A DNA stretch of 32,154 nucleotides from contig NZ_QGMZ01000056.1 of NCBI RefSeq assembly GCF_003173335.1, positions 1-32,154 of the forward strand. The letters run 5' to 3'. The translations under genes were made by a program, and so were the position numbers. The notes under the pieces were generated by a model. The model saw only the letters and a list, made by a program, of their open reading frames with translations. It was not told the DNA's origin and searched no databases. This stretch comes from Methanospirillum stamsii. Its GTDB lineage: Archaea > Halobacteriota > Methanomicrobia > Methanomicrobiales > Methanospirillaceae. How positions within the stretch are numbered: the stretch's first letter is position 1; each line of letters begins with the position of its first letter. Shown in pieces: positions 1 to 17,242 of the stretch.

Positions 1-54
1 GATGTGTTTGAAAATTGGAGGAAAACTTATCCGAAAGTCATCCCTAACTCAGCC
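1..54. other. Unrelated sequence at the broken end of a binding-protein gene
   Basis: Homology to the two dockerin-tagged sister proteins stops at the DPEL motif (about position 55). Both sisters continue with about 80 more residues beginning QSVNAVKN or QTVNAVKN, but here only one Gly codon and a stop follow. None of the three frames of bases 1-54 on the minus strand restores the expected sequence, so a simple frameshift is unlikely. An insertion or rearrangement junction is the simplest explanation. I cannot name an element from 54 bases; it does not resemble the IS21-like end at the other edge of the window. Confidence 0.5.
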
Positions 55-1071
55 GAGTTCAGGATCTGAAACGATATCCTCTATTGGGTACCATGGTTCT
101 TTCCCAGCCCTATGAATGAGAATTACATCCGGATTCCATTTTATAATCTGTTCTTTTGAAATGGTCAAAACTCCAAAGTTGGTGGTTGGTGCTGCACCCT
201 CTGCAACATTTTTTCCTCCTGCAATGTCTATCGGATCGTACAAACAAAGAGTTCCTTCAAAACCAGCTTTGGTAAAACCGGCAATGTATACTTTAACTTT
301 ATCGTCTTCCGGAATAGAAGATGTAATATCTTCTACTTTTCCAATTTCCTCATTCCAAAGTGAAATGAGATCTTCAGCCCGATTTTGTTTACCAAAGAGA
401 ATTCCTGTCTGTCTCCAGTTTTCAAAATACCCACCATCATCATCATATTTTACCCGGTTAAAATTTGGGAAAAAGACAGGAACGCCGGTATTTTTTTGAA
501 TTTCATCTGCAACATCAGGTTCCAAACTGGAACTCATGGAAATAACGACATCCGGATGAAGTGATAAGATTTTTTCCTGGTTAATGTCAGAGAATGTTCC
601 AACCGTTTCCAAATTTTTTATTTCCGGATATTTTTGACCGAATAATTGGCTGTCTGCATTTTGTATAGTATTTTCATCAACACCAACAATCGTATCAAAA
701 GAATCCAGGGTAGTTATTAGCGTTACTGCACCGGGATATGCTGCAACAACTCTTTTCAGGGGAACTTTCATGGTTACCGTTCTTTCGTTACAGTCAACCA
801 TTGTAACTTCAGTCTCATCACCTGCAATAATCGATTCAATCCGGGAAATGTCATCCTCATTGACAATTCCGTCATAATTTGCATCTGCAAACTGAGTCTT
901 TTCCTTTACTCCACTAATTATTCCTTTAAGGTATGTGATATCCTCTTCATCGATGATATCATCCATATTGGCATTTCCGTATACACTTAAGGTAAAATCA
1001 TATGCACTGACCGGACCAATAACCAGAAGACATAATCCTAAAAAAAGAAAAAATTTCTGAAATTTTATCAT
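49..1071 (-). pseudogene. Dockerin-tagged BtuF/FecB-type solute-binding protein, C-terminally truncated (binding protein A)
   Basis: This is an extracellular solute-binding protein of the FecB/BtuF (TroA-like, PF01497) class, cut short. It has a signal peptide ending near VSA-YDF (residues 1-23). Two dockerin-type calcium loops follow: GNANMDDIIDEED at about 31-43 and DANYDGIVNEDD at about 63-74. The binding domain starts near residue 90 (ERTVTMKVPLKRVVAAYP) and includes the family motif NPDVILI. It is 340 residues long against 417-420 for its sisters and ends abruptly at DPELG, so the last roughly 80 residues of the C-lobe are missing. It starts 6 bp after the stop of binding protein B and is probably co-transcribed with it. 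The two are tandem duplicates, nearly identical through signal peptide and dockerin but diverged beyond. A truncated C-lobe probably cannot close on a ligand, hence the pseudogene call. Confidence 0.75.
840..1006 (-). repeat. Dockerin-coding DNA repeat, copy 1
   Basis: This segment encodes the two dockerin loops and the end of the signal peptide of binding protein A. It is highly similar at DNA level to the copy in binding protein B, including an identical 42-base run at 940-981 and 2209-2250. The downstream binding domains differ far more, which suggests recent duplication or gene conversion limited to the tag. Confidence 0.75.
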
Positions 1072-1077
1072 TATTCA

Positions 1078-2340
1078 TCATCTCCAGGTAACGTAACTAC
1101 CACAGTTTTCGACCATCCAGTCATACAATCCCGAAACGCCATAGAACTCTTCTAAAATTTCATTACATTCTTTTTCAACATTCAAATCCGTGAACAAATC
1201 CGGATAGAATAATTTAGCAAGATAATAACATTCACAAAGACCGGTTGCCGAATCCCAGCCAGTATCCCAACCTTTTGTTCCGTAAACGCGTTCATTTTTA
1301 ACTGCATTGACGGATTGCAAAGCAGGATCATGTAAAATACCGTCTATACTCCCGTGTTTTCCATCATCCTCTTTTGTCCCTGCATGAACGAGAATTACAT
1401 CCGGATTCCACTCGATGATCTGTTCTTTTGAAACATCAATACCTCCCCATCCTGAAGTACCTACAGGCAAATCTTTTGCAACATTGATACCACCGGCAAT
1501 ATCAATCGGTTGATAATATGTCGAAGTCATCGTTGGAGAAGCATAACATGCAAAATAGACCTTTGGTTTCTCGTTTTCAGGTACCTGTGACGTTATATCT
1601 TCGATAGCCTTGATTTTTTCATTGCTATACTCAATCAATTCTTCAGCACGTTTCAGGTCATCATTACCCTGCAATAAACCCACAAATCTCCAGGTTTCAT
1701 ACGCTCCATCATCTTTGTCAAAGGATGCCACTTCTTTTGGAGCTGCATATACAAATGGAATCCGGGTATTCTGGCTCAAAGCCTGAGCAATTTCTTTACT
1801 AGTAAAAAATCCGCCGTAAATGACATCCGGATTTACAGAAAGAATTGCTTCCTGGTTTGGTTCCTGACCGGTTCCAACTTCTGGTATATCCTTTAACTCA
1901 GGATGTGCCTTAAAAATTAATTTATTTGCTAATCCGGATGTAGTTCCGATTCCTACTATTGAATCAATAGAATTAAGTTGTACAACCGGCCTTACAGAAC
2001 CTAAAAATAAATTAGCATTGCTTTTTACGGGTGTATTAACCTTTCCAGTCATACCCTGATTATCAACAAGTGTCAGAATTACCGGATCTCCGGAGATTAT
2101 AGATTCAATTTGTGAAATATCAGCCTCATTAATTATGTTATCATAATTAGCATCTGCAAACTGAGTCTTTTCGTTTACTCCGCTGATTATTCCTTTCAAG
2201 TACGTGACATCCTCTTCATCGATGATATCATCCATATTGGCATTTCCGTACACACTTAAAGTGAAATCATATGCTGATACCGGAGCCACCAATAAAAAAG
2301 TAATAGAGAGAAGTGCTATAATGCAGAATAAAAATTTCAT
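1078..2340 (-). CDS. Dockerin-tagged BtuF/FecB-type solute-binding protein (binding protein B)
   Basis: Secreted ABC-importer binding protein of the FecB/BtuF family, 420 residues. Seen in order: a signal peptide (cleavage near VSA-YDF, residue 23); two dockerin-like EF-hand loops (NANMDDIIDEED and DANYDNIINEAD, with acidic or Asn residues at loop positions 1, 3, 5, 9 and 12); then a two-lobed binding domain from about residue 95 to the end, with NPDVIYGG and NPDVILVHAG at the usual strand positions and AVKNERVYG near the C-terminus. There is no lipobox and no C-terminal membrane helix. The gene lies downstream of the nitrogenase-like operon across a 214 bp gap that contains a possible terminator, so it may have its own promoter. 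Known substrates of the family are metal chelates, siderophores, haem and corrinoids; the actual ligand is unknown. Confidence 0.9.
   Translation of the reverse strand: MKFLFCIIALLSITFLLVAPVSAYDFTLSVYGNANMDDIIDEEDVTYLKGIISGVNEKTQFADANYDNIINEADISQIESIISGDPVILTLVDNQGMTGKVNTPVKSNANLFLGSVRPVVQLNSIDSIVGIGTTSGLANKLIFKAHPELKDIPEVGTGQEPNQEAILSVNPDVIYGGFFTSKEIAQALSQNTRIPFVYAAPKEVASFDKDDGAYETWRFVGLLQGNDDLKRAEELIEYSNEKIKAIEDITSQVPENEKPKVYFACYASPTMTSTYYQPIDIAGGINVAKDLPVGTSGWGGIDVSKEQIIEWNPDVILVHAGTKEDDGKHGSIDGILHDPALQSVNAVKNERVYGTKGWDTGWDSATGLCECYYLAKLFYPDLFTDLNVEKECNEILEEFYGVSGLYDWMVENCGSYVTWR
2109..2272 (-). repeat. Dockerin-coding DNA repeat, copy 2
   Basis: Second copy of the signal-peptide/dockerin segment, in binding protein B. 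It shares an exact 42-base run (2209-2250) with copy 1. A third, more diverged copy encodes the dockerin of binding protein C at about 7043-7192. Confidence 0.75.
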
Positions 2341-2554: not shown

Positions 2555-3313
2555 TCAGCGGTTTTCTTTTTTGCTGATTATTTCATCAGCCAAAACAGTA
2601 ATAGCCCGGACATATGCCCCATCATCAAAAAAAGATGCAACTGTAGATCTGGCAGACTCGCATTCCTGCACAACCTTATCACGCGGAATTCGGGTAACAA
2701 CCCGTACTCCGATTTCAGCGGCAAGATCTGATATGAGTTTATCTTCATTCTCAACATTTCTGCTGTTCTGAATAATTCCACAAAGACGGGCATACCCTTT
2801 CTGACTAAACTGTGAAACTGCCAAAGCAATATTCTCCGCAGCATACAGACTCATCAGTTCACCGGAGGTCACAATGTATACTTCTTCTGCATATCCCTTC
2901 CGAAGAGGCATCGCGAATCCCCCGCAAACCACATCACCAAGCACATCATATAAGACAAAATCCGGTTTTAACTCATTAAACGCATTTAATGCATCCAAAC
3001 GCTCAAACGCAGAAATAATTCCTCTTCCTGCACATCCGACACCCGGAGTCGGACCCCCGCACTCAGCACAATAAATCCCGTAATCACCTTTTGTTACCAA
3101 CTGATCAAGAGTTACACCATCTTTTCCCTGACGAAGAGTCTTTAGAATCGGGGTAATTCTCTCTCCACCAGTTAGCATCCTGGTTGAATCAGCTTTTGGA
3201 TCGCAACCAATTTGCATAACAGTATATCCTTTTTTTGCTAAAACAATCGAAAGATTAGAGGTTGTAGTAGACTTTCCAATACCTCCCTTCCCATATAACG
3301 CTATTCTTCTCAT
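2555..3313 (-). CDS. NifH/BchL/CfbC-like ATPase (nitrogenase-like reductase component)
   Basis: Homodimeric iron-sulfur ATPase of the NifH family, expected to pass low-potential electrons to a component-1 partner with ATP hydrolysis. The P-loop is GKGGIGKS (residues 8-15) and switch-like DPKADSTR follows at 38-45. The two cysteines expected to bridge the [4Fe-4S] cluster are C94 (GCAGRG) and C130 (DVVCGGFAMP). Their spacing of 36 compares with 35 for Cys97/Cys132 of Azotobacter NifH. At 252 residues it is shorter than NifH (about 290), nearer the chlorophyll and F430 homologues. Its ATG overlaps the stop of the upstream subunit by 4 bp, so the genes are translationally coupled. No other nif assembly genes are present, which argues against true nitrogen fixation. 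Which nitrogenase-like clade it belongs to needs a tree. Confidence 0.92.
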   Translation of the reverse strand: MRRIALYGKGGIGKSTTTSNLSIVLAKKGYTVMQIGCDPKADSTRMLTGGERITPILKTLRQGKDGVTLDQLVTKGDYGIYCAECGGPTPGVGCAGRGIISAFERLDALNAFNELKPDFVLYDVLGDVVCGGFAMPLRKGYAEEVYIVTSGELMSLYAAENIALAVSQFSQKGYARLCGIIQNSRNVENEDKLISDLAAEIGVRVVTRIPRDKVVQECESARSTVASFFDDGAYVRAITVLADEIISKKENR

Positions 3314-4593
3314 TTTATGAATACCTCCGGATGAGCATTACACATATTGGTGATCATCTGAGTCAGGTATGCATATCCACGAAAACCAACAAAGGGAGTT
3401 CCATCATACATGGTGATATAATCCGGTGTCGGATGAGCAGCAGGAATCTTAATCTGGACTGATTTAGCCATTTTCAGATAGTAAGAATTTGCAAAAAGAA
3501 TTTGTGGCTTTTTCCCATTAACTATTGACTCAAAAAGATCATCATCAGGGTTACAGTATAGGTCATGAATCCCTAAATCCGAAAACAGTATTTTATAATT
3601 TTCGTGTTCACTTATTTGTGGTTCTTCTGGTAAAAAAACCGCTGAAACCTGCATGCCCCAGTCTTTTATGATCATTTCGGAAAGACCATATGCATATTCA
3701 TAAGGGCAGGCAAGAATTACCGATAAATGATCATAGGGTTGAATTTTTAAGAACAATGAAGTAAGTGAAAATCCAAACCGGGATATTTCATCATTTATTA
3801 TTTCTTCAGGATAAAGAATACCAAGTAACTCAGATACCCGGGCAATCCACTTTTTTGTTCCGGTCAGACCAATAGGAAGACCATACATATATTTCTGGCC
3901 GGATAACTCTTCAATTTCTTCTCCGACAGGGATCATTATGTCCCTGATAACCAGGTTTAACGAGGCATCAGGTATGTTTTTTATTTCATCAGTAGTGCAT
4001 CCGTCCGGGAAGATCGTTCCGATAGAAATCCCCAATAATGATAACAATCTCCTGATTTCTGCAAGATCCGATATCGTGTTGAATTGTTCACACGTAGGTC
4101 CGAGTATGTTTACTTTTTTCTTCGTAGGGGTATATGAACCGGGTTTGATAAATTCACGGATAACTGCTTTTGAACTCTCTGCAATTCCCAAAAAGTATGT
4201 TCCGTTAAATCCACCGGATGAAAATGGAATCAAACGGGCAGATACTTCAGGCTGGAGGGAACGAACAATTCCATCGATATCAAGTCCTATTACCGCGGTT
4301 ATTGAAGTGGCTACAACTGCAATGACTGATGGATGGTACGTAGAATCCACCCATTTAATCGATTCTTTGAGCCGTGCATCTGAACCCATAACAACATCAT
4401 CTTCATTAACGGCACAAGTAAAAATTTTGTGAAACATGGATCGACGGTTCATCGAATTAAAACTCATCTGGGTGTATGTAACAGTCCCGGGAGCTCCATG
4501 CTCAACAATGATACAATCCCTGATTCCAGCCATTGTCCAGAGAATTCCAAAATAATCAGTGGCCTCTGGAATTCCGGTTTCAATAATTCTCAT
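3310..4593 (-). CDS. Nitrogenase-like component 1, beta (NifK/BchB)-type subunit lacking the cluster cysteines
   Basis: This is the second component-1-type subunit (PF00148 oxidoreductase family), 427 residues. The fold signature is visible: the N-terminal ETGIPEATDYFGILWTMAGI segment, then IIVEHGAPGT at about 29-37, then VVATSITAVIGLDIDGIV at about 93-110. These match the three places where NifD/NifK carry cluster cysteines. By eye, all three are replaced: T6 for the first, T37 in the HGxxGC motif, and I98 in place of the Cys of TSC. The only nearby cysteine, C27, sits just before HGAPG. In DPOR the BchB subunit likewise contributes no cysteine, only an aspartate, to the shared cluster. Here no aspartate is obvious at that place, so the fourth ligand is unclear. 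The gene overlaps both neighbours by 4 bp, so an obligate heteromer with them is likely. Confidence 0.88.
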   Translation of the reverse strand: MRIIETGIPEATDYFGILWTMAGIRDCIIVEHGAPGTVTYTQMSFNSMNRRSMFHKIFTCAVNEDDVVMGSDARLKESIKWVDSTYHPSVIAVVATSITAVIGLDIDGIVRSLQPEVSARLIPFSSGGFNGTYFLGIAESSKAVIREFIKPGSYTPTKKKVNILGPTCEQFNTISDLAEIRRLLSLLGISIGTIFPDGCTTDEIKNIPDASLNLVIRDIMIPVGEEIEELSGQKYMYGLPIGLTGTKKWIARVSELLGILYPEEIINDEISRFGFSLTSLFLKIQPYDHLSVILACPYEYAYGLSEMIIKDWGMQVSAVFLPEEPQISEHENYKILFSDLGIHDLYCNPDDDLFESIVNGKKPQILFANSYYLKMAKSVQIKIPAAHPTPDYITMYDGTPFVGFRGYAYLTQMITNMCNAHPEVFIK

Positions 4594-5924
4594 GCATTCA
4601 CCCTCATTTTCATGGCAGAAATATCAAAATTCGGAATGGTTTGTACGTAGTCACCAAAGATTTCCAGTAATATGTGAATTGCGAAATCAAATCCATTAAG
4701 AAATGCTATGGAATGAATATTGCGATAACCAATGTGGTTTTCCTTACACATATTTTCTTCATATCCTGAAAACGTGATATAATAGTCAGGTTTTATCCTG
4801 ACAAGGTATTCTTCCAGCGGATAACAGGAAGCATTGCGAATAATATCCGATTTTCCACCATCAGAATGAAATTTTTTCGCATCGGCATAATCCTGTTCAA
4901 AGATTTCATCTATGGCAATAGCAGCAATTTTAATACCAAAGGAATGTAGCAGGAACGCCAGATCAAATGTTCTTCCTTGTCCTATTGAGATGATTGCTTT
5001 CTTTCCTGCCAAACCCTGTTTTAATACAGAAGTCAATTGCAATAATGAGTTATATTCTGGTGTGATAATTGATTCAATATCAACAGAAAGAAACATACCT
5101 AAATTTCTATAGAGGTGAAGTATTGATTCTGGTGAAAAAGGACGATCGAAGAGAAAATAATCCATCTGATATTTTTCTTTCATTTTTTCCGCCAGAGGAA
5201 GGGCCCCTCTGTCCAGGATAATGTTACAGGATGCTTCAGGGGCTTTTTGCAAGGTATTAAGATCGGTATGTGAAGGAATGACTGAGTGAATGGAGTATCC
5301 GGTTTTTGATATAACCGTAAACAGTTCAGTATTAAAAGAACGAAATGCTGATGCACCGATTATGTTTACAGAATGAGGAATTTTTTGAACCGGATAATCC
5401 ATTAATTCTATGAGTGCTTCTAAAGCTCGTTCCATCCCCTGTTTTGAAGAGATATTCGTAAAATTTTCAGTTCTGATAAATAAAACCGGAATTTTTACAA
5501 CATCCCTGACCTGGCGGACTACTGCTTCAATATCTTCTCCGACAATCTCCGGAAGACAGGAAGTTACAACAAAAATAACCTCGGGTTTTTGCTTATGATA
5601 AAAATCAACAATCGCATTTTTTATCGTTTCTTCTGCTCCATGAATGATATCATCATCTTCATACAAAAAGAACACAAGATTATTTTTGAGCATAAAGGAT
5701 GATTGTTCAAACCGTGACATGAAAACCCGGGCATTGTGAGCACAGATTGCAGGGGCAATCATGATAGCAGCAGATTTTTCGATAAGGGGTGCAATAAAAC
5801 TTACGGCAAAAAATCCACATCCAAGTCCGGGAAACACCGGGGCTACAATATCCGGGGTTTTTTTCTCTGACACCAGTTGATCTAGTGTCACGAACTTTTG
5901 TAATTCACTAAAGGTTGCTGTCAT
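4590..5924 (-). CDS. Nitrogenase-like component 1, alpha (NifD/BchN)-type subunit carrying the three cluster cysteines
   Basis: First gene of the reductase operon, 444 residues from the ATG at 5924. That start is preferred over an ATG four codons upstream because GGAG lies 6 bases before it. Three cysteines fit a shared [4Fe-4S] or P-type cluster: C36 (GLGCGFF), C61 (AICAHNAR) and C123 (TSCLPEIVGEDIEAV). Their spacing of 25 and 62 is nearly that of DPOR BchN (25 and 61; family knowledge). The position of NifD Cys275, which holds FeMo-co, aligns by eye with Asp238 (ILDRGALP). The HS of NifD His442 appears kept as IHS (His404). The enzyme is thus unlikely to carry a FeMo-co-like cofactor in the normal way and may instead bind an organic or tetrapyrrole substrate in that cavity. 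The reaction is unknown. Confidence 0.9.
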   Translation of the reverse strand: MTATFSELQKFVTLDQLVSEKKTPDIVAPVFPGLGCGFFAVSFIAPLIEKSAAIMIAPAICAHNARVFMSRFEQSSFMLKNNLVFFLYEDDDIIHGAEETIKNAIVDFYHKQKPEVIFVVTSCLPEIVGEDIEAVVRQVRDVVKIPVLFIRTENFTNISSKQGMERALEALIELMDYPVQKIPHSVNIIGASAFRSFNTELFTVISKTGYSIHSVIPSHTDLNTLQKAPEASCNIILDRGALPLAEKMKEKYQMDYFLFDRPFSPESILHLYRNLGMFLSVDIESIITPEYNSLLQLTSVLKQGLAGKKAIISIGQGRTFDLAFLLHSFGIKIAAIAIDEIFEQDYADAKKFHSDGGKSDIIRNASCYPLEEYLVRIKPDYYITFSGYEENMCKENHIGYRNIHSIAFLNGFDFAIHILLEIFGDYVQTIPNFDISAMKMRVNA

Positions 5925-6036
5925 TATTAACTCCATTTTAACTGAAAATTTTACAATGATTGAAAAGAAGCATTAAATAGGAAAGTTACACAGATATCAT
6001 AAATATCGCCAATACATGTGTTTTTTAATGAAAATT

Positions 6037-6054: not shown

Positions 6055-7308
6055 TTACCATTGGTAAAAATCGTATCCTTCTGCATAATCAGAGAATAAC
6101 CCGTCTTTTCCATAGACATATTTCATAATTTCATTACCATTTGATTCAACATTCAAATTTTCAAATTTGTCCGGATGTAATAATTTTGCCAGATACCCCA
6201 CCTGGGCAAGTTTTTCTCCCAGTATTCCTCCACCGTTTTGAGCAACGTTCATGCAGTAGACTCTTTTATTCTTTACTGCATTTACCGTCTGGAGATCCGG
6301 ATCGGAAAGTATAGCGTCGACTTCATTCGTATTTCCTCCATGAACAGTAATAACATCAGGATTCCAGAGGATAATCTGTTCCTTTGATACTTCTACGCCA
6401 CCGGGCTGACTCTCCGGAGTACCTGGAGGTACGATGCCCCCTGCTCTTTCCACCATTACTTCATCAGCTGAACTTTTACAGACGGTCAGTAATTCTCCAT
6501 TACCTCCGCCGGGTCCGCAATTATATACAACAGGTTTGTCTTCATCAGGTATTGCAGAGGTAATTTGAGTGATATCATCAATCTTTTCCTTGGAATAGTT
6601 AATCAGATCTCGTGCTCTTTCATCTTTCCCCGTTACAGCCCCGATTATTCTGAGCATATCAGCAACCCAGAGATCTCCTGCTGAAGCTAAAGCTATCGTT
6701 GGAACCTGAGTCTTATCTTGAAGCAAATCTGCATCTACATCTGTCGTTACAAACGTAACATCAGGGTTGAGTGATAATACCAATTCTTCGTTAATATCCT
6801 TGAAACTACCCGGGTCCGGAAGGCCGGCTAATTCAGGAGCAGCATCTTTTACAGCACAGGCCCCCATTTTCTCATTTGGAAAAGGTCCTCCGACTATTTT
6901 ATCCTGGGCTCCTAGTGCAATCAGCATCCGGGTTGAATCCATACGGGATGCAGAGACAATTTTTTCTACCGGAAGAGGTACGGTTACGATACGGTCTGAC
7001 ATGTCCAAAATATGAATTTCATCCGCATCTCCCGCGATTAACTCTTCTATCCGGGTTATATCATCTTCATTGATGATATTATCACAGTTGGCATCAGCGA
7101 ACTGACTCTTTTCTTTTGTTCCACTGATAATGCTCCGCACATAATTGATATCATTTTCATCGATGATGTCATCCATGTTGGCATTTCCATAAACCGTAAG
7201 GGTATCTTTGTATGTCTGACTAAATTCCTCCGGAGTGGCCGTAACCGGGATTCCAAAAAGAACCAGACATACCAATATTGACAACAGAATACGCTTCAAA
7301 TAACTCAT
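6055..7308 (-). CDS. Dockerin-tagged BtuF/FecB-type solute-binding protein (binding protein C)
   Basis: Third dockerin-tagged binding protein, 417 residues from the ATG at 7308, which has GGTG 5 bases upstream; the preceding GTG codon is less likely. The signal peptide runs to about residue 25 (VTA-TPEEF). Dockerin loops are NANMDDIIDEND and DANCDNIINEDD. The binding domain starts near 105 (SDRIVTVPLPVEKIVSASRMDSTRM) and contains NPDVTFV and NPDVITVHGG. The C-terminal end AVKNKRVYCMN matches binding protein B. It sits directly upstream of the nitrogenase-like operon in the same direction. A strong promoter-proximal palindrome (7322-7345) suggests regulated expression. Other acceptable names are iron-complex or corrinoid ABC transporter substrate-binding protein. 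No permease or ATPase lies in this cluster, so it must use one encoded elsewhere. Confidence 0.9.
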   Translation of the reverse strand: MSYLKRILLSILVCLVLFGIPVTATPEEFSQTYKDTLTVYGNANMDDIIDENDINYVRSIISGTKEKSQFADANCDNIINEDDITRIEELIAGDADEIHILDMSDRIVTVPLPVEKIVSASRMDSTRMLIALGAQDKIVGGPFPNEKMGACAVKDAAPELAGLPDPGSFKDINEELVLSLNPDVTFVTTDVDADLLQDKTQVPTIALASAGDLWVADMLRIIGAVTGKDERARDLINYSKEKIDDITQITSAIPDEDKPVVYNCGPGGGNGELLTVCKSSADEVMVERAGGIVPPGTPESQPGGVEVSKEQIILWNPDVITVHGGNTNEVDAILSDPDLQTVNAVKNKRVYCMNVAQNGGGILGEKLAQVGYLAKLLHPDKFENLNVESNGNEIMKYVYGKDGLFSDYAEGYDFYQW

Positions 7309-7321
7309 CACTACACCAAAA

Positions 7322-7829: not shown

Positions 7830-8576
7830 TTAAAAACTCGATCCCGGACTGGTAAATGCAAGGAGTCTGACCCCGGTAACCTGCTGGAATGTTGCACCCT
7901 GACTGATAGCATTCAGGACAGCATTCTCGTCAATAACTTTGGATCCAGCAATGATGTTTGCTCCATGATCAAATAGAACCGGGGAAATGGGCGTAGTTGG
8001 ACCAAGAATAACTACAAGCGCCTCCGGTTTACATAGCCCAAGCAGATCATCAAGGGTATGATTGATCAGAGAACTTCCGGTGATGGCTACCACATCAGCC
8101 TGGGGGATTAAATCAGAAGCTGCATGAGCAGGATGATCTCCTTCCAACGGATTTTGTTCTATCACCCAAAGATTTTTTACCGCTTTTTTTACCTTTGGAA
8201 TAAATGGGAAATGACCAACGATTGCAACATTTTTTCCTGCACCCCGCTCGATCAGAACTTCAGACGCATTCATCTCAACGGCATCCTCTTCCTGATACTC
8301 CATCAGTGAATTAATCGCAGCAATTCCAATTCCTGCCTCCATGGTATTTTCAGAAAGGGCATATTGTGCCAGTTCCTGTGCACTTTTCCGGTGAAGATTC
8401 CCAACATTCCGGACATGAGTGGTGTGATCATGGGGTTTATCCGGGACAAAAGTTGTTGCCAGACCGCAATGGGTACTGCAAACAGTAGTCCAGTGAACAC
8501 CCACCATCACCGAACGGACAGGAACATCTTTTTTTGGTAGATTAGACAATAATTCTTCAATAATATGCGTACTCAT
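7830..8576 (-). CDS. DUF364/DUF4213 putative heavy-metal-chelation protein
   Basis: Cytoplasmic protein of 248 residues resembling the DUF4213 (N-terminal) plus DUF364 (Rossmann-like, C-terminal) family, annotated as putative heavy-metal chelation. The N-part has VMVGVHWTTVCSTHCGLATTF (about 23-43) with two cysteines and a histidine. The C-part has AHAASDLIPQADVVAITGSSLINHTLDDLL and VVILGPTTPISPVLFDHGANIIAGSKV. In other genomes this family often sits beside metal, molybdenum or corrinoid transport genes, which fits here. A GGGA Shine-Dalgarno element lies close before the ATG. It is divergent from the DtxR-type regulator at 8962, so shared metal-responsive control is plausible. Biochemical function is not established. 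Confidence 0.85.
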   Translation of the reverse strand: MSTHIIEELLSNLPKKDVPVRSVMVGVHWTTVCSTHCGLATTFVPDKPHDHTTHVRNVGNLHRKSAQELAQYALSENTMEAGIGIAAINSLMEYQEEDAVEMNASEVLIERGAGKNVAIVGHFPFIPKVKKAVKNLWVIEQNPLEGDHPAHAASDLIPQADVVAITGSSLINHTLDDLLGLCKPEALVVILGPTTPISPVLFDHGANIIAGSKVIDENAVLNAISQGATFQQVTGVRLLAFTSPGSSF

Positions 8577-8961
8577 TGTATCCCTTAAAAATTAATTACT
8601 ATAAAAATTCGAATAATCGAACATTGAAATCAGGAGAACGATTTTTCGAGATAAAAGATATGACGTAAAGATTAAAATTATTTATCCTTTTCTTGCGAGT
8701 AATTAATATATATTATAGCATAATATCAACTTCTTATCAACTCGATTGCCAGTGAATATTCAACAATTTTAGGCTTTTCAGGTTCATCAAAACAATTTCG
8801 GAAAGGTTTATTATTTACCAATTTCAAATACTCATTAAAAGTTAGAATATAACCGTTTAATTAAAACCATAAGACGAAACCCAACCAAAATACCTAAAAT
8901 GAAACTCCTCCATTACAAGGTTTACCGATTATTGACTGTCAAAAACAAAAAAGGATACATT
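8577..8961. other. Divergent intergenic region, 385 bp
   Basis: AT-rich region between the DUF364 gene and the DtxR-type regulator. Besides the inverted repeat at 8608-8621 I see a TATA-like GAATATAAC near 8847 for the regulator, and AACCGTT at about 8851. I saw no clear DtxR box (TTAGG-type palindrome). The ORF extends upstream to an ATG at 8899, but that extension is not needed. Confidence 0.4.
8608..8621. promoter_or_regulatory. Inverted repeat at the DUF364 promoter
   Basis: TTCGA (8608-8612) and TCGAA (8617-8621) flank a 4-base spacer. They lie just upstream of a TATA-like TTTTTATAG on the minus strand (about 8599-8606), in the divergent region before the DtxR-type gene. A possible operator; the arms are short. 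Confidence 0.3.
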
Positions 8962-9360
8962 ATGACCATAAAAAAAGTATCACCACGAAATGAAGACCTG
9001 CTCGAAGAAATTTATAAGATCTCATTGGAAAAGGGATATGCCAAATCCCGTGACATCGCAGGTGCTCTGATTATTTCTCCTGCGACAGTGACTGAACGTT
9101 TTAAAAAACTCCAGGAAGCAGGGTATGTAAATTATGAAAAGTATGGCGGCGTGACGTTAACACCGGAAGGAATACAGATAGCAGAACGGACACTTAAGTC
9201 ACATCATGCAATCCGAAGGCTTTTGGAACTTGCCGGAGTTGATTCCATCATTGCAAACCGTGATGCCTGCATGATGGAGCATGGACTCTCACAGGATTCA
9301 TACGGTAAACTTATTTCGTTTATTGACTGTATCGAAGAAAATTGTAAAACCCGGAACTAA
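8962..9360 (+). CDS. DtxR/MntR-family metal-dependent transcriptional regulator
   Basis: Metal-responsive repressor of 132 residues. The ATG at 8962 is chosen because AAGGA lies 7 bases upstream, whereas the upstream ATG at 8899 adds a 21-residue extension unlike the family. An N-terminal winged helix (NEDLLEEIYKISLEKGYAKSRDIAGAL, then SPATVTERFKKLQEAGYVNYEKYGGVTLT) precedes the dimerisation and metal-binding domain. The signature is DACMMEH, matching the C-x-x-E-H ligands (Cys102, Glu105, His106 in DtxR). There is no C-terminal SH3-like domain, so it has the short MntR-like form. It probably senses Fe(II), Mn(II) or a similar ion and controls nearby uptake genes. The target operator was not identified. 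Confidence 0.9.
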   Translation: MTIKKVSPRNEDLLEEIYKISLEKGYAKSRDIAGALIISPATVTERFKKLQEAGYVNYEKYGGVTLTPEGIQIAERTLKSHHAIRRLLELAGVDSIIANRDACMMEHGLSQDSYGKLISFIDCIEENCKTRN

Positions 9361-10446: not shown

Positions 10447-11553
10447 CTATTTACGTCCCCTCCAATCTTTTTTTACCAAGATATACAGAAACATAGGTCC
10501 TCCTAAAAGAGATGTAATAATACCGACAGGTATCGGTGATTCGAATGGAATCCTTCCTATGGCATCAGATAATAGAAGAATTAAAGACCCCATTACCATT
10601 GAAGCAGGAAGTAATTGCCTATAATCTCCACCGATGAGCCTTCTCATGAGATGGGGGCCCAGTAATCCAACGAATCCGATGATACCTGCCATAGCAACAC
10701 AAATTGCTGCTAACACGGATGCGAATAACATTGAAAGAATGGTAAGTCTTTGCGTATCCACCCCCAGACTTTTTGCGATGTCGCTCCCTGCTTCTATTGA
10801 ATTATAATCAAGTCGGTGGTAGATAAAAAAGGAAGTGATAAACAACAAAAAAATTAATACAAGGCTGAGATCACTCCAAGTAGCTTTGGATAGATCCCCG
10901 AACTGCCAAAAAACGATTGCCTGGAGAGTTTCAGAATCAACAAAATACTGCAAAGAAGACAAAGCAGCTCCAAAAATTGATCCCATAGCCACACCTGCGA
11001 GGATAATGCTTTCTGGAGCAAATTCTGATTTTTTGGATAATATGACTATTATCCCAACAGTGAGCATAGAGAATAAAAAGGCAAATGAAGACATTCCATA
11101 TATACTGTTGAGTGCATCTTCCAACCACGTTTCATTAAACCAACTCATGTATGATGCTGCTATGGACATAGCTGCTCCAAATGCTGCTGCATTAGAAATC
11201 CCAAGAGTGTACGGAGATGCAAGAGGGTTTCGTAATATACATTGCATTACCGATCCCGATATCGCAAGTGCAGATCCTACAATCACTGCAGCAAAAATTC
11301 TAGGTAGCCGAATATCCCAAATTACTACTCCGGAAACGGAGTCATTGTTAAACAGTAATGTTTCAATGACTTTCCAAACAGACATAGAATAAGCACCCAT
11401 CCCAAGAGAGATCAGGCTCACTACAATAGATGCAGCAATTAGAATAAGTATTATAATCTTTTTTTTGGCTTTGAAAAAAAGGTATGGATTCGAGTTCCCC
11501 CTCTCATCATTTTCTTCTTTTGATTTTTTTTTTGAGATGGATGAAAGGTTCAC
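10447..11553 (-). CDS. FecCD/BtuC-type ABC importer permease (importer 1)
   Basis: Integral membrane permease of 368 residues, with a hydrophilic N-terminal stretch of about 30 residues before the first helix. Family landmarks: IWDIRLPRIFAAVIVGSALAISG, then RNPLASPYTLGIS, ILAGVAMGSIF, LGVDTQRL, GFVGLLGPHLMRRLIGGDYR (the region contacting the ATPase) and PVGIITSLLGGP. About ten transmembrane helices are expected, as in BtuC. It begins with GTG 5 bases after the stop of the binding protein and ends at the ATPase gene, giving the usual binding protein-permease-ATPase order. The likely substrate class is metal-siderophore, haem or corrinoid. Confidence 0.93.
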   Translation of the reverse strand: MNLSSISKKKSKEENDERGNSNPYLFFKAKKKIIILILIAASIVVSLISLGMGAYSMSVWKVIETLLFNNDSVSGVVIWDIRLPRIFAAVIVGSALAISGSVMQCILRNPLASPYTLGISNAAAFGAAMSIAASYMSWFNETWLEDALNSIYGMSSFAFLFSMLTVGIIVILSKKSEFAPESIILAGVAMGSIFGAALSSLQYFVDSETLQAIVFWQFGDLSKATWSDLSLVLIFLLFITSFFIYHRLDYNSIEAGSDIAKSLGVDTQRLTILSMLFASVLAAICVAMAGIIGFVGLLGPHLMRRLIGGDYRQLLPASMVMGSLILLLSDAIGRIPFESPIPVGIITSLLGGPMFLYILVKKDWRGRK

Positions 11554-11558
11554 GTTCT

Positions 11559-12701
11559 CTACACCTTAGCCAAATTCACTTTTCCGAATAACTGAATATC
11601 CTGTCCGGTTTTATCTTGAAGATACTCAACTACCTTGTTATATACAATGCCACCTGCCTGCTCATCTCCATAGAATTCATTCATAAGTGTCCGGACGTAA
11701 TTGTTCACATCAAAATCTTCTAGAGCTTCCGGATTGAGATTAGATGCAAGAAGATACGCTCCACCGAGACACATATATGCTCGGGGAAACCAGTCTGTCA
11801 CTACATATACTTCACCGGTTTTGAAAGGGGTTAATACATTGAATTTATTGGGATCTTTATGCCATAATTCCTTGAAATTATCCCAGCATCCCAGACTGAT
11901 AAATATAACATCAATCTTGCCCTCTTCTTCCTCATATTGGTACAATTTTTCGAATTCCATCGTAAGATATTCTTCGTCAGTGATGTCGTACATAATATTG
12001 TGCACGTAATCATCAAGATAGAGCAGGGGATGGTACGTTGCAGGCGAAGAACCAAGGAAATTGGGTCTTGATTTGCCTGCCCCTCCAGCAACGTACACAT
12101 TCTTTGTTTCGGGTATGTCTGATTTTTGGAGCATTGTTTCAAGATTCTTTGTCCCTTCGTCAATGAGATCTATCAAATAATGAGCCCTATCTTCTTTTGC
12201 GAAAATTTCAGAGATGGGAAGGAGATTGACTTCCAGGCATTCCTTAGAATTACTGAAAAGATTGCTTTGACAGGTGTAAAAGTAGACCGGAATGCCAGCG
12301 GCGTTCATTTTTTCCCTAAACTCTGCACGATCTTCCTCGCTGGTTTTGCTATCACCAATAAGGACAAGATCAGGTTTCTTTGCAATGATCTGTTCAACCA
12401 TGGTTATCATGGATCCTTCCATTGTGCAAATGTCCTCTGTTCCAAAGATTTCAGTGATAGCCATGTCGGTGGGGGAATCGCTACTTTTAGAAGACCATAT
12501 GACTCTGTCGACTACATCTTTGCCTAAGTAAGCAAGATATTCCAATCCCGAAGTGACGACTCTTTCGGGGGCTTTATCTAATACTATTTCATTTCCATAG
12601 AAATCCTTCACCGTCCTAGGGTACCCTTCTTGGGCTGATGTGATACCTATCGTTAATAACAAAATAATCAATGTTATTATGATAATCTTTTTCCGATTCA
12701 T
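11559..12701 (-). CDS. BtuF/FecB-type solute-binding protein of importer 1 (binding protein D)
   Basis: Secreted binding protein of 380 residues from the ATG at 12701. An upstream TTG at 12722 would lengthen the N-terminus, but the ATG gives a normal signal peptide (MNRKK, a hydrophobic core, then TSA-QEG). It also lies about 27 bases below a TATA box, which suggests a leaderless transcript. The mature part starts GYPRTVKDFYGNEIVLDKAPERVVTSG, a typical FecB/BtuF opening, with KKPDLVLIGD in the first lobe and IDVIFISLG in the second. There is no dockerin, unlike A-C. The sequence is markedly diverged from the other binding proteins (CWDNFKELWHKDP, DWFPRAYMCLGG), implying a different ligand. 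It is the first gene of a binding protein-permease-ATPase operon. Confidence 0.9.
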   Translation of the reverse strand: MNRKKIIIITLIILLLTIGITSAQEGYPRTVKDFYGNEIVLDKAPERVVTSGLEYLAYLGKDVVDRVIWSSKSSDSPTDMAITEIFGTEDICTMEGSMITMVEQIIAKKPDLVLIGDSKTSEEDRAEFREKMNAAGIPVYFYTCQSNLFSNSKECLEVNLLPISEIFAKEDRAHYLIDLIDEGTKNLETMLQKSDIPETKNVYVAGGAGKSRPNFLGSSPATYHPLLYLDDYVHNIMYDITDEEYLTMEFEKLYQYEEEEGKIDVIFISLGCWDNFKELWHKDPNKFNVLTPFKTGEVYVVTDWFPRAYMCLGGAYLLASNLNPEALEDFDVNNYVRTLMNEFYGDEQAGGIVYNKVVEYLQDKTGQDIQLFGKVNLAKV

Positions 12702-12725
12702 CCGTATTTTGTTGTCATTCAAGTT

Positions 12726-13052: not shown

Positions 13053-13071
13053 CCTGAATCATGGATTCAGG
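13053..13071. promoter_or_regulatory. Perfect palindrome between divergent genes
   Basis: CCTGAATC (13053-13060) and GATTCAGG (13064-13071) around a 3-base spacer form a perfect 8-bp inverted repeat between the small ORF and the large activase-fusion gene. AACCGTT, the half-site seen three times before the PadR gene, also occurs at 13030-13036. This is a likely operator for one or both divergent transcripts. Confidence 0.55.
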
Positions 13072-13174
13072 TTCAATTGGGAATGGCCTAAATATCACCA
13101 TTTTGGTTTACCAAAAAAAAATGCAAACTATGCAAAAAAACCCAAAATTCGTGGTTTACTATTCAGAGGCAAAT

Positions 13175-16100
13175 ATGAGTGAAACTAAACCAAGTATGAA
13201 ACCATATCCGGACAATCCGGAAATCAAAGGAACAAAAATGCTACCTGAACATTTTAGTATCGGAATTGACATCGGATACTCATCGATAAAGATTAGTCTC
13301 GTAAACGGAATTCTAAAACCGGTTTATGGTGATTATGTCCTTCATAAGGGAAAAATCAAAGAGACACTTAAACAAATGCTTGCAACCCTGGAAAGCCAGT
13401 ATTCCCCTTCATGCATCACAACCGGAGCAGTAACCGGCAGTGAATCAAAGTGGATCTCCAAGGAACAAACCATTCATCATGTCAATGATGTCTCGGCACT
13501 TCTTGAAGGGAGTCTTTGCCTGGATGACTCAGTCAGATCAATCATTGATATCGGAGGACAGACCGCCAGATATATCACCGGATTTACCAAATTGGACAAA
13601 TCAGGCATAGAAATTTCAATGAACTCCAATTGTGCTGCAGGAACCGGATCATTTCTGGAAGAGCAGGTCTCACGGTTGAACCTCTCAATTGAAGATTATG
13701 CAATATATGCAGCAAAAAGCAGTACAATCCCCCGGATTGCAGGAAGATGCAGCGTATTTGCAAAAACAGATATCATCCACCACCAGCAGGAAGGAGTATC
13801 GGTTGAAGACATACTGCAGGGTCTGGCCTATGCTTTGATCAGAAATTACCGTGGGGCGGTAATGAAAAAACTACCCATTACAAAACCCCTGTTTTTTGCC
13901 GGTGGTGTAGCTCAGAACGGAGCGATTGTCAATGCCCTGAAAGAAATCCTGAATATTACTAAAAATGACCTCATCGTTTCAGATTTTAGTGAAAATGCAG
14001 CTGCAATCGGTACTGCAATTATCGCCAGGCAAAATAATCTCAACATCTCATACGATGAGCTCCAAACTATCCTTTCACAGGAAGATGCCTTTTATTCACA
14101 TGAAAACCTTGATCTTACCCTGCCAGCTCTAGATAAGTTCGGACAGAATGATATTAGCAACAAACACACACGTGTCCCCATTCCTTTAGAAGAAGTGAAA
14201 ACTGACTGTTATCTTGGGATAGATATCGGTTCAACCAGTACCAATCTGGTTCTTATTAACAAAAAAAATGAAATTATTGCATACCGGTATCTGAGAACTC
14301 TTGGAGATCCGGTACATGCAGTCAGCACCGGACTTGCAGAACTGGGAGATGAATTTGGAGATAAAGTAAGGGTTATCGGAGCTGGAACAACTGGTTCTGG
14401 AAGATATATGATTTCCAGGCTTTTCGGTGCTGATATTATTAAAGATGAGATAACCGCCCAGGCAAAAGCAGCCATGACCATTGATGCTTATGTAGATACC
14501 GTATTTGAAATTGGCGGTCAGGATTCCAAATTTATCAGCCTGAAAAATGGTGTTGTCTCCGATTTTCAGATGAATAAAATCTGTGCTGCAGGTACCGGAT
14601 CATTTATCGAAGAACAATCAAAAAAATTCGATATTCCCCTTGATGGATTCGGAGAAAGAGCCCTTACCAGTAAAAATCCGGTCTATCTGGGCGAACGATG
14701 CACGGTATTCATCGAGACCAGTATTGCTGCACACTTGGCAAATGGAACAAGTAATGAAGATATCATATCCGGCCTTTGTTATTCCATTGTGAAAAACTAT
14801 CTGAACCGGGTAGTAGGACAGAAAAAAATAGGGAACCGGATCTTCCTTCAGGGAGGAATCGCCTACAACCAGGGAATTATCAATGCATTCCGTGCTTTGA
14901 CCGGAAAAGAAGTGATTGTTCCCCCGTTCTTTAGTGTAACCGGAGCGTATGGAGCAGCAATCCTGACCAGCGAAGAGATGGGATCAAAGAAGAGTACTTT
15001 TAAAGGATTTTATCAAAGCGTACCTATAGGGGAAGAAAAAGAAGAATCCGTGCAGCAGGTCACGGGTTCTGATTTTGAGGATATGGTTGCCGATCTTATC
15101 TTTGAAGGCTATGACGGAACTCTTGATCCACATAAAAAAACCATTGGAATTCCCCGGGCACTGTTCACCTATGGGATGTACCCGATGTTTAATGCCTTTT
15201 TCCGCGAACTTGGCTATAATGTCATCCTTTCAGATCCAACCAGTGAAAAGACCATCTGGCTTGGACAGGATTATTCTCTTGACGAGACCTGTTACCCGAT
15301 AAAACTTATCAACGGACATGTTGCTGAACTGGTTGAGAAAAAAGTAGATTACATCTTCTTCCCTGATCTTTACACCGTTCTCCACCCGGGTTCTCATACC
15401 AGGCAGGATTTTGGATGCCCATACATGCAGCTTGCATTCAAACTGGTCAACCGAGCCATGGAACTAGACAAAAAGGGAATAAAACTGCTTTCACCCACCA
15501 TCGGATTCAGCCTTGGGGAGGGATTCATGAAAAAAAGTTTCATGAACCTTGGCACGTTACTTGATCGGACACCTGAACAAACAGGAAAAGCCCTTCAACA
15601 AGGTATGAAGGCATTTAAGGATTTTGAAAGTCGTCTTGAAAAACGAGGTAAAGAGATAGTGAGTAATCTTAAACCTGATGAGAAGGTCTTTGTTTTGATA
15701 TCCAAAACTTATGGCGTGGCTGATCCGGTTTTAAACCTTGGAATACCGGGAAAATTAAAAGAGATGGGATTTAACACCCTGGCATTTTATAATATTCCGG
15801 AATGTGACATTTCCAAAGAGCACCCGAACATGTTCTGGCCATTTGGTCAGCATATTCTTGAAGCTGCACAGGTAGTAAAACAGCACCCAAACCTCTATGC
15901 TATCTTTCTAACCCATCACGGATGTGGCCCGGATACGGTTTTCACCCACTATTTCAAGGAGATAATGGGAGATAAGCCATACCTGAACATAGAAGTTGAT
16001 GAACACTCATCCGGAGTTGGAGTGGTAACAAGACTTGAGGCATTTGTAAACAGTCTGAATCACATTCCATCAAAACCGGCAGAAGATATGAGTTCTTATC

Positions 16101-17242
16101 CGGCACATGTTCCTCATCCTGAAACAAAGATAACAACCAACGGGCTTGGATTTTCCAGTTCGTCCGAATATTATCTGCCAGATCTCTATCCATATTCCGG
16201 ACTCTTCTGTGAATTTCTGAATAAAAAAGGAGTGCGGGCACACCTCTTTTCACCAACCAGTGAGAAATCAATTGATGATGGAAGAAAACACACCATAACC
16301 AATGAATATTTCTCAATGGCGGCCCTTCTTGGCGATGCTCTGAATATTCCGGGTATACGAAATACAGATGAAAATTCTAAAATCCTGTTTATCCCCCAAA
16401 GCGAAGGGGCGGAAGCAGATGGGCAGTACAACCGATTTATCCGGACCGTTCTTGATGAAGAGGGGCTTTCTCACATCGGAATAGAATCTCCATACATTGA
16501 AGATATCATATACGAGGATGAAGATTTTCTCAATTCCCTCTATGTTATCCTGATTGCCGGAGACCTTGTTCTGACTACTCCGGTATCTGACCGGGCACGG
16601 TACCTGAACCAGATAAAAGGCATGATACAGAGGAATGAACTGGATATTCATTCCCTCAAAACAATAGCCTGGGAGATTTCAATGATCCTCCAATCTGCAC
16701 CGCCGGAAAAAACCGTGCTTGCCATAGGTGAACCCCTGGTTCTCTACAATGATGTGCTTAATAGTCAGATTCTAAGTGAGATTGAAAATAAATCCGCCAG
16801 GATCATGTATGCACCATTAAGTGAATATCTCTGGCAGACCTGGAAAGATTATATTCTCCAGTATGGGAACGAGAGAACAAAAACACTCTTACAGAAACTC
16901 TCAGTTCTTGAGGACTACATGAGCCAGATACATCAGGTACTTGGAGAATTCAGCCCTTACGAAGAAAAGGCAGATGATCTTATCAGGCTTGCAGATGCAT
17001 CCACCGGGTATTATGCCGGTGCATTTGGCAGGTACCGGGAAGCAAAAGTCCTCGGGTTACCAGCATCAGTAAGCGGAGTCATTACTCTCTCATCAATGTA
17101 CGAGAATACAGGAATTCTGCTCAATACCCTTCATAAAGGATTTGATTCTGATCATCAGAAACCAATCCTGAATCTGACATTTGATGGGACAAGAAATGAG
17201 CATGATGAAAGCAAGGTAGAATCATTCCTCTACTACCTGTAA
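13175..17242 (+). CDS. Double 2-hydroxyacyl-CoA dehydratase activase (archerase) fused to a DUF2229-like reductase region
   Basis: Protein of 1355 residues from ATG 13175, chosen because GAGG lies 5 bases upstream; an ORF extension to 13061 is unlikely. Two BcrAD/BadFG ASKHA ATPase domains are visible. Domain 1 (about 28-290) has GIDIGYSSIK, DIGGQTARY, C153 (NCAAGTGSF) and C192 (GRCSVF). Domain 2 (about 345-600) has GIDIGSTSTN, EIGGQDSKF, C470 and C509. Each cysteine pair is 39 residues apart, as for Cys127/Cys166 of HgdC, so the two domains could share one [4Fe-4S] cluster as an internal dimer. From about 650 a DUF2229/HgdB-like region begins GIPRALFTYGMYPMF and carries C706 (ETCYPI), C748 (GCPYM), C877 and C917 (HHGCGPD), candidate cluster ligands. 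Domain 1 has Thr where GGQD is usual. The family drives ATP-dependent low-potential electron transfer; this protein's substrate is unknown. Confidence 0.9.
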   Translation: MSETKPSMKPYPDNPEIKGTKMLPEHFSIGIDIGYSSIKISLVNGILKPVYGDYVLHKGKIKETLKQMLATLESQYSPSCITTGAVTGSESKWISKEQTIHHVNDVSALLEGSLCLDDSVRSIIDIGGQTARYITGFTKLDKSGIEISMNSNCAAGTGSFLEEQVSRLNLSIEDYAIYAAKSSTIPRIAGRCSVFAKTDIIHHQQEGVSVEDILQGLAYALIRNYRGAVMKKLPITKPLFFAGGVAQNGAIVNALKEILNITKNDLIVSDFSENAAAIGTAIIARQNNLNISYDELQTILSQEDAFYSHENLDLTLPALDKFGQNDISNKHTRVPIPLEEVKTDCYLGIDIGSTSTNLVLINKKNEIIAYRYLRTLGDPVHAVSTGLAELGDEFGDKVRVIGAGTTGSGRYMISRLFGADIIKDEITAQAKAAMTIDAYVDTVFEIGGQDSKFISLKNGVVSDFQMNKICAAGTGSFIEEQSKKFDIPLDGFGERALTSKNPVYLGERCTVFIETSIAAHLANGTSNEDIISGLCYSIVKNYLNRVVGQKKIGNRIFLQGGIAYNQGIINAFRALTGKEVIVPPFFSVTGAYGAAILTSEEMGSKKSTFKGFYQSVPIGEEKEESVQQVTGSDFEDMVADLIFEGYDGTLDPHKKTIGIPRALFTYGMYPMFNAFFRELGYNVILSDPTSEKTIWLGQDYSLDETCYPIKLINGHVAELVEKKVDYIFFPDLYTVLHPGSHTRQDFGCPYMQLAFKLVNRAMELDKKGIKLLSPTIGFSLGEGFMKKSFMNLGTLLDRTPEQTGKALQQGMKAFKDFESRLEKRGKEIVSNLKPDEKVFVLISKTYGVADPVLNLGIPGKLKEMGFNTLAFYNIPECDISKEHPNMFWPFGQHILEAAQVVKQHPNLYAIFLTHHGCGPDTVFTHYFKEIMGDKPYLNIEVDEHSSGVGVVTRLEAFVNSLNHIPSKPAEDMSSYPAHVPHPETKITTNGLGFSSSSEYYLPDLYPYSGLFCEFLNKKGVRAHLFSPTSEKSIDDGRKHTITNEYFSMAALLGDALNIPGIRNTDENSKILFIPQSEGAEADGQYNRFIRTVLDEEGLSHIGIESPYIEDIIYEDEDFLNSLYVILIAGDLVLTTPVSDRARYLNQIKGMIQRNELDIHSLKTIAWEISMILQSAPPEKTVLAIGEPLVLYNDVLNSQILSEIENKSARIMYAPLSEYLWQTWKDYILQYGNERTKTLLQKLSVLEDYMSQIHQVLGEFSPYEEKADDLIRLADASTGYYAGAFGRYREAKVLGLPASVSGVITLSSMYENTGILLNTLHKGFDSDHQKPILNLTFDGTRNEHDESKVESFLYYL

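Follow-up and report, generated by a model that had tools for sequence, protein, structure and literature searches.

The window, i.e. the whole stretch of 32,154 nucleotides analysed here, is one entire contig (C52, NZ_QGMZ01000056.1) of the 3.74 Mb genome of the methanogen Methanospirillum stamsii. It contains a nitrogenase-like operon of three genes, D, K and H, which on sequence grounds is a member of a widespread and uncharacterised clade of anaerobes, designated here clade S. The genes are three intact open reading frames (ORF) on the minus strand, placed in the order D-K-H with a 4-nt overlap (ATGA) at both junctions:

4590 to 5936, minus strand: D-type (alpha-like) component-1 subunit, 448 amino acids; Oxidored_nitro PF00148, E 8.4e-56; putative cluster cysteines C40/C65/C127
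3310 to 4593, minus strand: K-type (beta-like) component-1 subunit, 427 amino acids; Oxidored_nitro PF00148, E 2.1e-70; no Cys at the P-cluster positions
2555 to 3313, minus strand: H-type ATPase/reductase component, 252 amino acids; Fer4_NifH PF00142, E 3.2e-89

The Pfam scores of H, K and D are far above the cut-offs and the assignments are therefore not due to chance. An earlier note on this DNA described an uncharacterised nitrogenase-like three-gene operon in a chelate-uptake island. The intact ORF, the strong Pfam matches and the Peripla_BP_2 genes on both flanks agree with this description, and the two cluster cysteines that the note assigned to the NifH-type ATPase are indeed present in H, where the alignment shows the P-loop and both [4Fe-4S] cysteines (C94 and C130) to be kept. 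The three genes overlap as it stated, but the end it gave for D (5924) is the second in-frame ATG and the ORF reaches 5936. Likewise, the window has no nif genes of the accessory type, but nifHDKEN are found on contig C47 of the same genome.

The three D cysteines (C40, C65 and C127 in the window) are kept in all aligned clade-S D proteins, as in NifD and BchN. The P-cluster columns of K contain no Cys in any clade-S member and are occupied by Thr, Gly and Ser in the window. The ligands of the FeMo-cofactor are not conserved in clade S: window D has Asp at the alpha-Cys275 column and, at the alpha-His442 column, a His is aligned in window D only and not in its orthologues. Without a conserved FeMo-cofactor ligand and without P-cluster cysteines in K, a nitrogenase is unlikely. 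The site of BchB Asp36 is also unconserved, the partner ligand column being Thr, His or Asn, which rules out a DPOR-type Asp as the fourth ligand. Beside this site, E31 of K is invariant across 12 aligned clade-S K proteins and is a candidate fourth ligand of the cluster.

The AlphaFold models, which are single chains, have the component-1 fold for both D (predicted local distance difference test score, pLDDT, 84) and K (pLDDT 83). The D model is about as close to DPOR (Z 30.5) as to V-nitrogenase (Z 29.5). The best match of the K model is BchB of DPOR (Z 40.6, 2.6 A over 408 residues), whereas Mar and NifN score well below it (Z ~34). The predicted fold of K thus points to a DPOR-like rather than a nitrogenase-like core, although similarity of fold is no proof of function.

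The relatives were found with a DNA signature of the H protein (MQIGCDPKADSTxxLxxG) in 85,000 genomes, a scan blind to the neighbouring genes that gave at least 119 loci; the operon on a Sporomusa plasmid was found separately. Among the matches listed, orthologues with the same D-K-H order occur in Methanothrix/Methanosaeta (L228 and L244), with identities of at most 44% for K and at most 32% for D, and more distant relatives are found in clostridia and in a Paenibacillaceae metagenome-assembled genome. Across 393 genomes of the phylum, D has no close relative, the best match reaching 29% identity. Unlike the H-signature scan, single-protein searches of genome contigs and viral contigs with window D gave no match; Sporomusa K gave none against a phage collection.

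The window and Methanothrix operons fall into a single group (D 91/86; K 99), which is sister to the Sporomusa-type and gut-clostridial types. Together they make up clade S (D 88/80, K 93; SH-like approximate likelihood ratio test, SH-aLRT), with concordant D and K topologies. The D tree joins clade S at 94/94 with a second clade of HDK operons, the C9-type, which has two cysteines in D and one in K, opposite Nif, Vnf, Mar, Bch and Cfb. The references are few, with one Mar (Chlorohelix), one BchN and one BchB, and the D branches are long. Approximately unbiased (AU) tests on D reject the grouping of the window group with Nif (p 2.7e-5), Mar (0.0014), Bch (0.0026) and Cfb (0.013). A grouping with the C9-type clade is not rejected (p 0.216), so the exact split of these two uptake-linked clades is unsure. 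The H tree is weakly resolved and does not fix the position of window H. None of the three proteins reaches an NCBIfam equivalog cut-off: with the CfbCD models, H scores 314 bits against 402, and K and D score 31.3 and 29.2 bits against 268.4, while the NifE and NifN models are among the better matches of D and K. From the cluster ligands, the model cut-offs and the AU tests taken together, we reject membership of Nif, Mar, Bch or Cfb. A phylogeny against these four references had been proposed in the earlier note, which held that the operon fits none of the known contexts exactly; the D and K trees do place it outside all four, but it is not isolated. Its place in clade S follows from the three D cysteines, the absence of K cysteines, the adjoining Peripla_BP_2/FecCD genes and the grouping of D and K.

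The gene neighbourhoods connect the clade to uptake. The figures given here refer to the matches listed, annotated by similarity. Peripla_BP_2 and/or FecCD genes lie within ~9 kb of 21 of the 22 clade-S members, while the nif loci of the same scan have none in their 8-kb surroundings (0/6; Fisher p 1.9e-5, the spans compared differing in size, ~9 vs 8 kb). FecCD is present at 17 of the 18 bacterial members, with the usual order AraC-SBP-FecCD-FecCD-ATPase-H-D-K, where SBP is a substrate-binding protein, and most bacterial loci have the AraC-type regulator. The survey proposed in the earlier note shows a conserved context and not an odd one; where the note saw no exact fit of the island with a known context, the neighbourhoods of the relatives point to iron-chelate acquisition.

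The bacterial members occur in siderophore loci. The Sporomusa termitida plasmid has a TonB siderophore receptor, AraC, SBP-FecCD-FecCD-ATPase-H-D-K and an esterase of the Fes type (PF00756). In a soil Bacillota contig, the operon adjoins AraC, a TonB siderophore receptor (TIGR01783, 355.6 bits vs cut-off 223.5), a catecholate cluster with 2,3-dihydroxybenzoyl-adenylate synthase (TIGR02275, 776.8 bits vs cut-off 723.55), an MxcG/EntF-like nonribosomal peptide synthetase and a major facilitator superfamily exporter. In gut clostridia, FeoA-FeoB adjoin the H-SBP-FecCD-ATPase-D-K operon of L145, and a PF12641 flavodoxin, plausibly the electron donor, follows K in five gut-type loci. In the archaeal branch, Methanosaeta L244 has the order D-K-H-SBP-SBP, as in the window. 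Methanosaeta PtaU1.Bin112 has CobN after D-K-H in two loci, with or without binding proteins in between, and in its locus L323 (3-11900) five tandem binding-protein genes stand just before the divergent D-K-H, which is followed by another one or two.

The neighbours of the operon in the window are the following:

6055 to 7311, minus strand: Peripla_BP_2 substrate-binding protein, upstream of D; PF01497, E 4.7e-23; N-terminal dockerin-like repeats
1078 to 2340, minus strand: Peripla_BP_2 substrate-binding protein, downstream of H; PF01497, E 3.5e-27
49 to 1071, minus strand: second downstream substrate-binding protein, apparently truncated at the contig end; PF01497, E 1.1e-22
7830 to 8576, minus strand: DUF4213/DUF364 "putative heavy-metal chelation" protein; PF04016, E 3.2e-42
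8899 to 9360, plus strand: DtxR-family metal-dependent repressor, candidate regulator; PF01325, PF02742
9641 to 10399, minus strand: ATPase of the ATP-binding cassette (ABC) importer of the FecBCD type; PF00005; best NCBIfam match of the haem/F420-0/Fe-citrate type
10447 to 11553, minus strand: FecCD-type permease; PF01032, E 5.2e-88
11559 to 12722, minus strand: substrate-binding protein of the FecBCD-type importer (weak Peripla_BP_2); PF01497, E 1.4e-5, 25.1 bits vs cut-off 27.5

The binding proteins at 49-1071, 1078-2340 and 6055-7311 have N-terminal dockerin-like repeats (NANMDDIIDEDDI...), which are unusual in ABC binding proteins and possibly serve in surface anchoring. The first of them has 340 amino acids, against ~420 in its neighbours, and ends 48 bp from the contig end; an insertion or the assembly edge may have shortened it. 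A search of the fetched loci for a repeated element at the left end of the window found none. A join to the CobN-bearing contig C56 is unsupported, as C56 starts with a transposase-like ORF and the rest of the truncated protein is not seen there. Further along the window (13061-17242), a protein of 1393 amino acids combines two BcrAD/BadF stretches with DUF2229 (2-hydroxyacyl-CoA dehydratase activator type); after it come DGC, PadR, TrmO, FmdE and methyltransferase genes.

Taken with its surroundings, the operon is best, though tentatively, read as an ATP-driven low-potential reductase that frees iron from imported ferric chelates, to which we give somewhat less than an even chance. In the window this is suggested by the location of D-K-H between chelate-type binding proteins, together with DUF364, the FecCD/ATPase genes and the DtxR-type regulator. 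Across the clade it draws on the uptake genes, and in bacteria on the siderophore, esterase, Feo and flavodoxin neighbours. The H dimer, an ATPase with one [4Fe-4S] cluster, would hand electrons to a D2K2 component. The latter would carry an iron-sulfur cluster held by the three D cysteines, with E31 of K as candidate fourth ligand and with neither P-cluster nor FeMo-cofactor. The substrate would be a metal chelate, most likely siderophore-like and ferric, that enters via the adjacent binding proteins and the FecCD importer. Once either the bound Fe(III) or its ligand was reduced, the iron would come free in the cytoplasm. Extended to clade S as a whole, and with slightly less confidence, the family may be a ferric-siderophore (metal-chelate) reductase with which anaerobes direct ATP-gated electrons of the nitrogenase type at highly stable iron complexes, catecholates included, to set the metal free, and of which the methanogens have a version with binding-protein arrays and CobN-type dechelatases. 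For the bacterial branch, we infer that a ferric siderophore is the best-supported substrate.

Several observations weigh against this assignment for the window operon. The siderophore, Feo and esterase contexts belong to bacterial relatives at ~16-25% D identity, and the two Methanothrix operons nearest the window have CobN-type chelatases or none instead of siderophore genes. The FecBCD set of the window is 3.7 kb away from the operon and may serve something else. Methanogens are not, to our knowledge, siderophore users. The substrate specificity may have changed within clade S.

The resemblance of K to BchB, a tetrapyrrole-binding subunit, and the CobN neighbours favour a different substrate, and for the archaeal branch they make a tetrapyrrole reductase a serious rival. 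A DPOR- or Cfb-like enzyme would reduce the ring of an imported haem, corrinoid or porphyrin, either letting a CobN/HmuS-type chelatase remove or exchange the metal or remodelling the ring into a cofactor. This is possible but rather doubtful. CobN-type genes follow D-K-H in the two Methanosaeta loci, and CobN, ChlI and ChlD stand beside a further nitrogenase-like system of the same genome (C78). HmuS, a CobN homologue, takes iron out of haem in Bacteroides, according to a paper that calls the role of the archaeal homologues unclear (PMC12583661), and tetrapyrroles are the substrates of those known family members that lack large clusters (PMC12552129). On the other hand, the bacterial clade-S loci have genes for siderophores and none for tetrapyrroles, Asp36, the ligand in DPOR, is not conserved, and the AU tests reject the grouping with Bch or Cfb. 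The C78 system groups elsewhere, outside the window group in both D and K trees, and the window has no CobN gene, although the contig stops where Methanosaeta has one.

Two other proposals are unlikely. A NifEN-like scaffold or assembly enzyme would link metal uptake to metallocofactor building, as Dos Santos et al. 2012 suggested (PMC3464626); the adjoining metal importer and the NifE/NifN matches of D and K agree with it, but assembly genes, that for a NifB-type radical SAM protein included, are missing from the window, the cofactor ligands are absent, and the siderophore receptors and esterases are left unexplained. A reductase of another imported organic substrate, acting on a C-S, C-O or C-N bond, is just as improbable. 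It would resemble the nitrogenase-like MarHDK and IsrHDK, found with sulfur-compound importers, and Isr does work with an importer (PMC11423573, PMC12552129). However, the transporter class differs, a radical SAM partner is missing, the cysteines of Mar for the P-cluster and the large cofactor are lacking here, and the grouping with Mar is rejected (AU p 0.0014). An alternative nitrogenase that fixes N2 is suggested by the overall NifHDK-type subunit composition, but can be dismissed as extremely improbable given the missing FeMo-cofactor ligand set in D and K and P-cluster ligands in K, the AU test against Nif (p 2.7e-5), the true nifHDKEN of the genome and the failure of Paenibacillus nifHDK-like genes to restore nitrogenase activity (PMC4246453).

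Besides nifHDKEN, the genome holds CfbC and CfbD (C6 and C15) and two further nitrogenase-like HDK operons (C9 and C78). Since the genome has dedicated nif and Cfb genes, neither N2 fixation nor F430 synthesis requires the window operon. The C9 system (L013, 5176-12660) consists of SBP-FecCD-ATPase-H-D-K and a further binding protein in a single run, with O-methyltransferase-like genes on its flanks; Methanospirillum sp. STE_32 has a locus much like it (L181). The C78 system (L012, 9164-12649) has H and D in a single open frame (737 amino acids), with K, FecBCD, CobN and ChlI/ChlD-like genes; its K has a strong relative in 16 other genomes of the same order and a weak one in one more. Many genomes of the order (L049-L073) also have a lone component-1 gene, distinct from CfbD and with no D/K partner within ~3.7 kb, which possibly encodes another homomeric nitrogenase-like protein.

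The known relatives of nitrogenase reduce N2, tetrapyrroles or C-S bonds, and we know of none that strips iron from imported iron complexes. Catecholate iron complexes have reduction potentials below those of ordinary cytoplasmic donors. If the proposed release of iron from chelates is correct, it would add a new reaction class, metal release from chelates, to the nitrogenase superfamily and explain how anaerobes get iron out of catecholates. What the nifHDK-like genes that accompany transporters in gut clostridia, Sporomusa and methanogens do, a long-open question, would become directly testable, and many "nifH" sequences of gut and sediment would be iron-acquisition genes rather than nitrogen-fixation genes.

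Compared with the known systems, the window operon shares with DPOR (BchLNB) the three cysteines of the N/D-type subunit, the lack of P-cluster and FeMo-cofactor, and a K fold closest to BchB. However, the partner ligand of DPOR/COR, Asp in BchB or Cys in BchZ, is not conserved in its clade, which is separate from Bch (AU p 0.0026), and chlorophyll genes are missing. With CfbCD it has in common the methanogen host, the nitrogenase-like nature and the 314 bits of H with the CfbC model, but CfbD is a homodimer, whereas the window has D and K, and the genome already holds CfbC and CfbD. MarHDK and IsrHDK are similar in their HDK composition, in their non-N2 substrates and, for Isr, in a substrate supplied by a transporter; Mar, on the other hand, holds a P-cluster and an [Fe8S9C] cluster (PMC12552129), whose ligands are absent from the window, as is a radical SAM partner. 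The C9-type clade of gut bacteria and other anaerobes, sister to clade S in the D tree, is also often found with FecBCD genes, but it differs in the distribution of its cysteines, and many of its members stand beside HydE/HydF or HypE/HypF. Among the loci L134-L252, many such operons of gut bacteria adjoin these hydrogenase-maturation genes and not importers.

The closest description is that of the NifHEN-like genes of Clostridium botulinum and Alkaliphilus oremlandii, located next to an ABC ATPase, to which no function was assigned and for which metal transport coupled to cofactor assembly was suggested (Dos Santos et al. 2012, PMC3464626). As in the window, they have three Cys in the D/E-like subunit and none in the K/N-like one, and they probably belong to the same clade, being matched by description and not by sequence. 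Li et al. 2014 (PMC4246453) showed that N2 fixation is not sustained by nifHDK-like genes of Paenibacillus. No paper assigning a function to the transporter-linked genes was found in the open-licence literature. The window operon differs from the clostridial genes in being archaeal, in its D-K-H order, in the binding proteins on both sides, in DUF364 and DtxR, and in the strong divergence of D and K (nearest relatives at 32% and 44% identity). That such genes stand next to ABC transporters is already known (PMC3464626). The present analysis adds their link with genes for catecholate siderophores, TonB, Feo and flavodoxin, a survey of the whole clade on which the two cysteine signatures rest, and an archaeal branch that has CobN and arrays of binding proteins.

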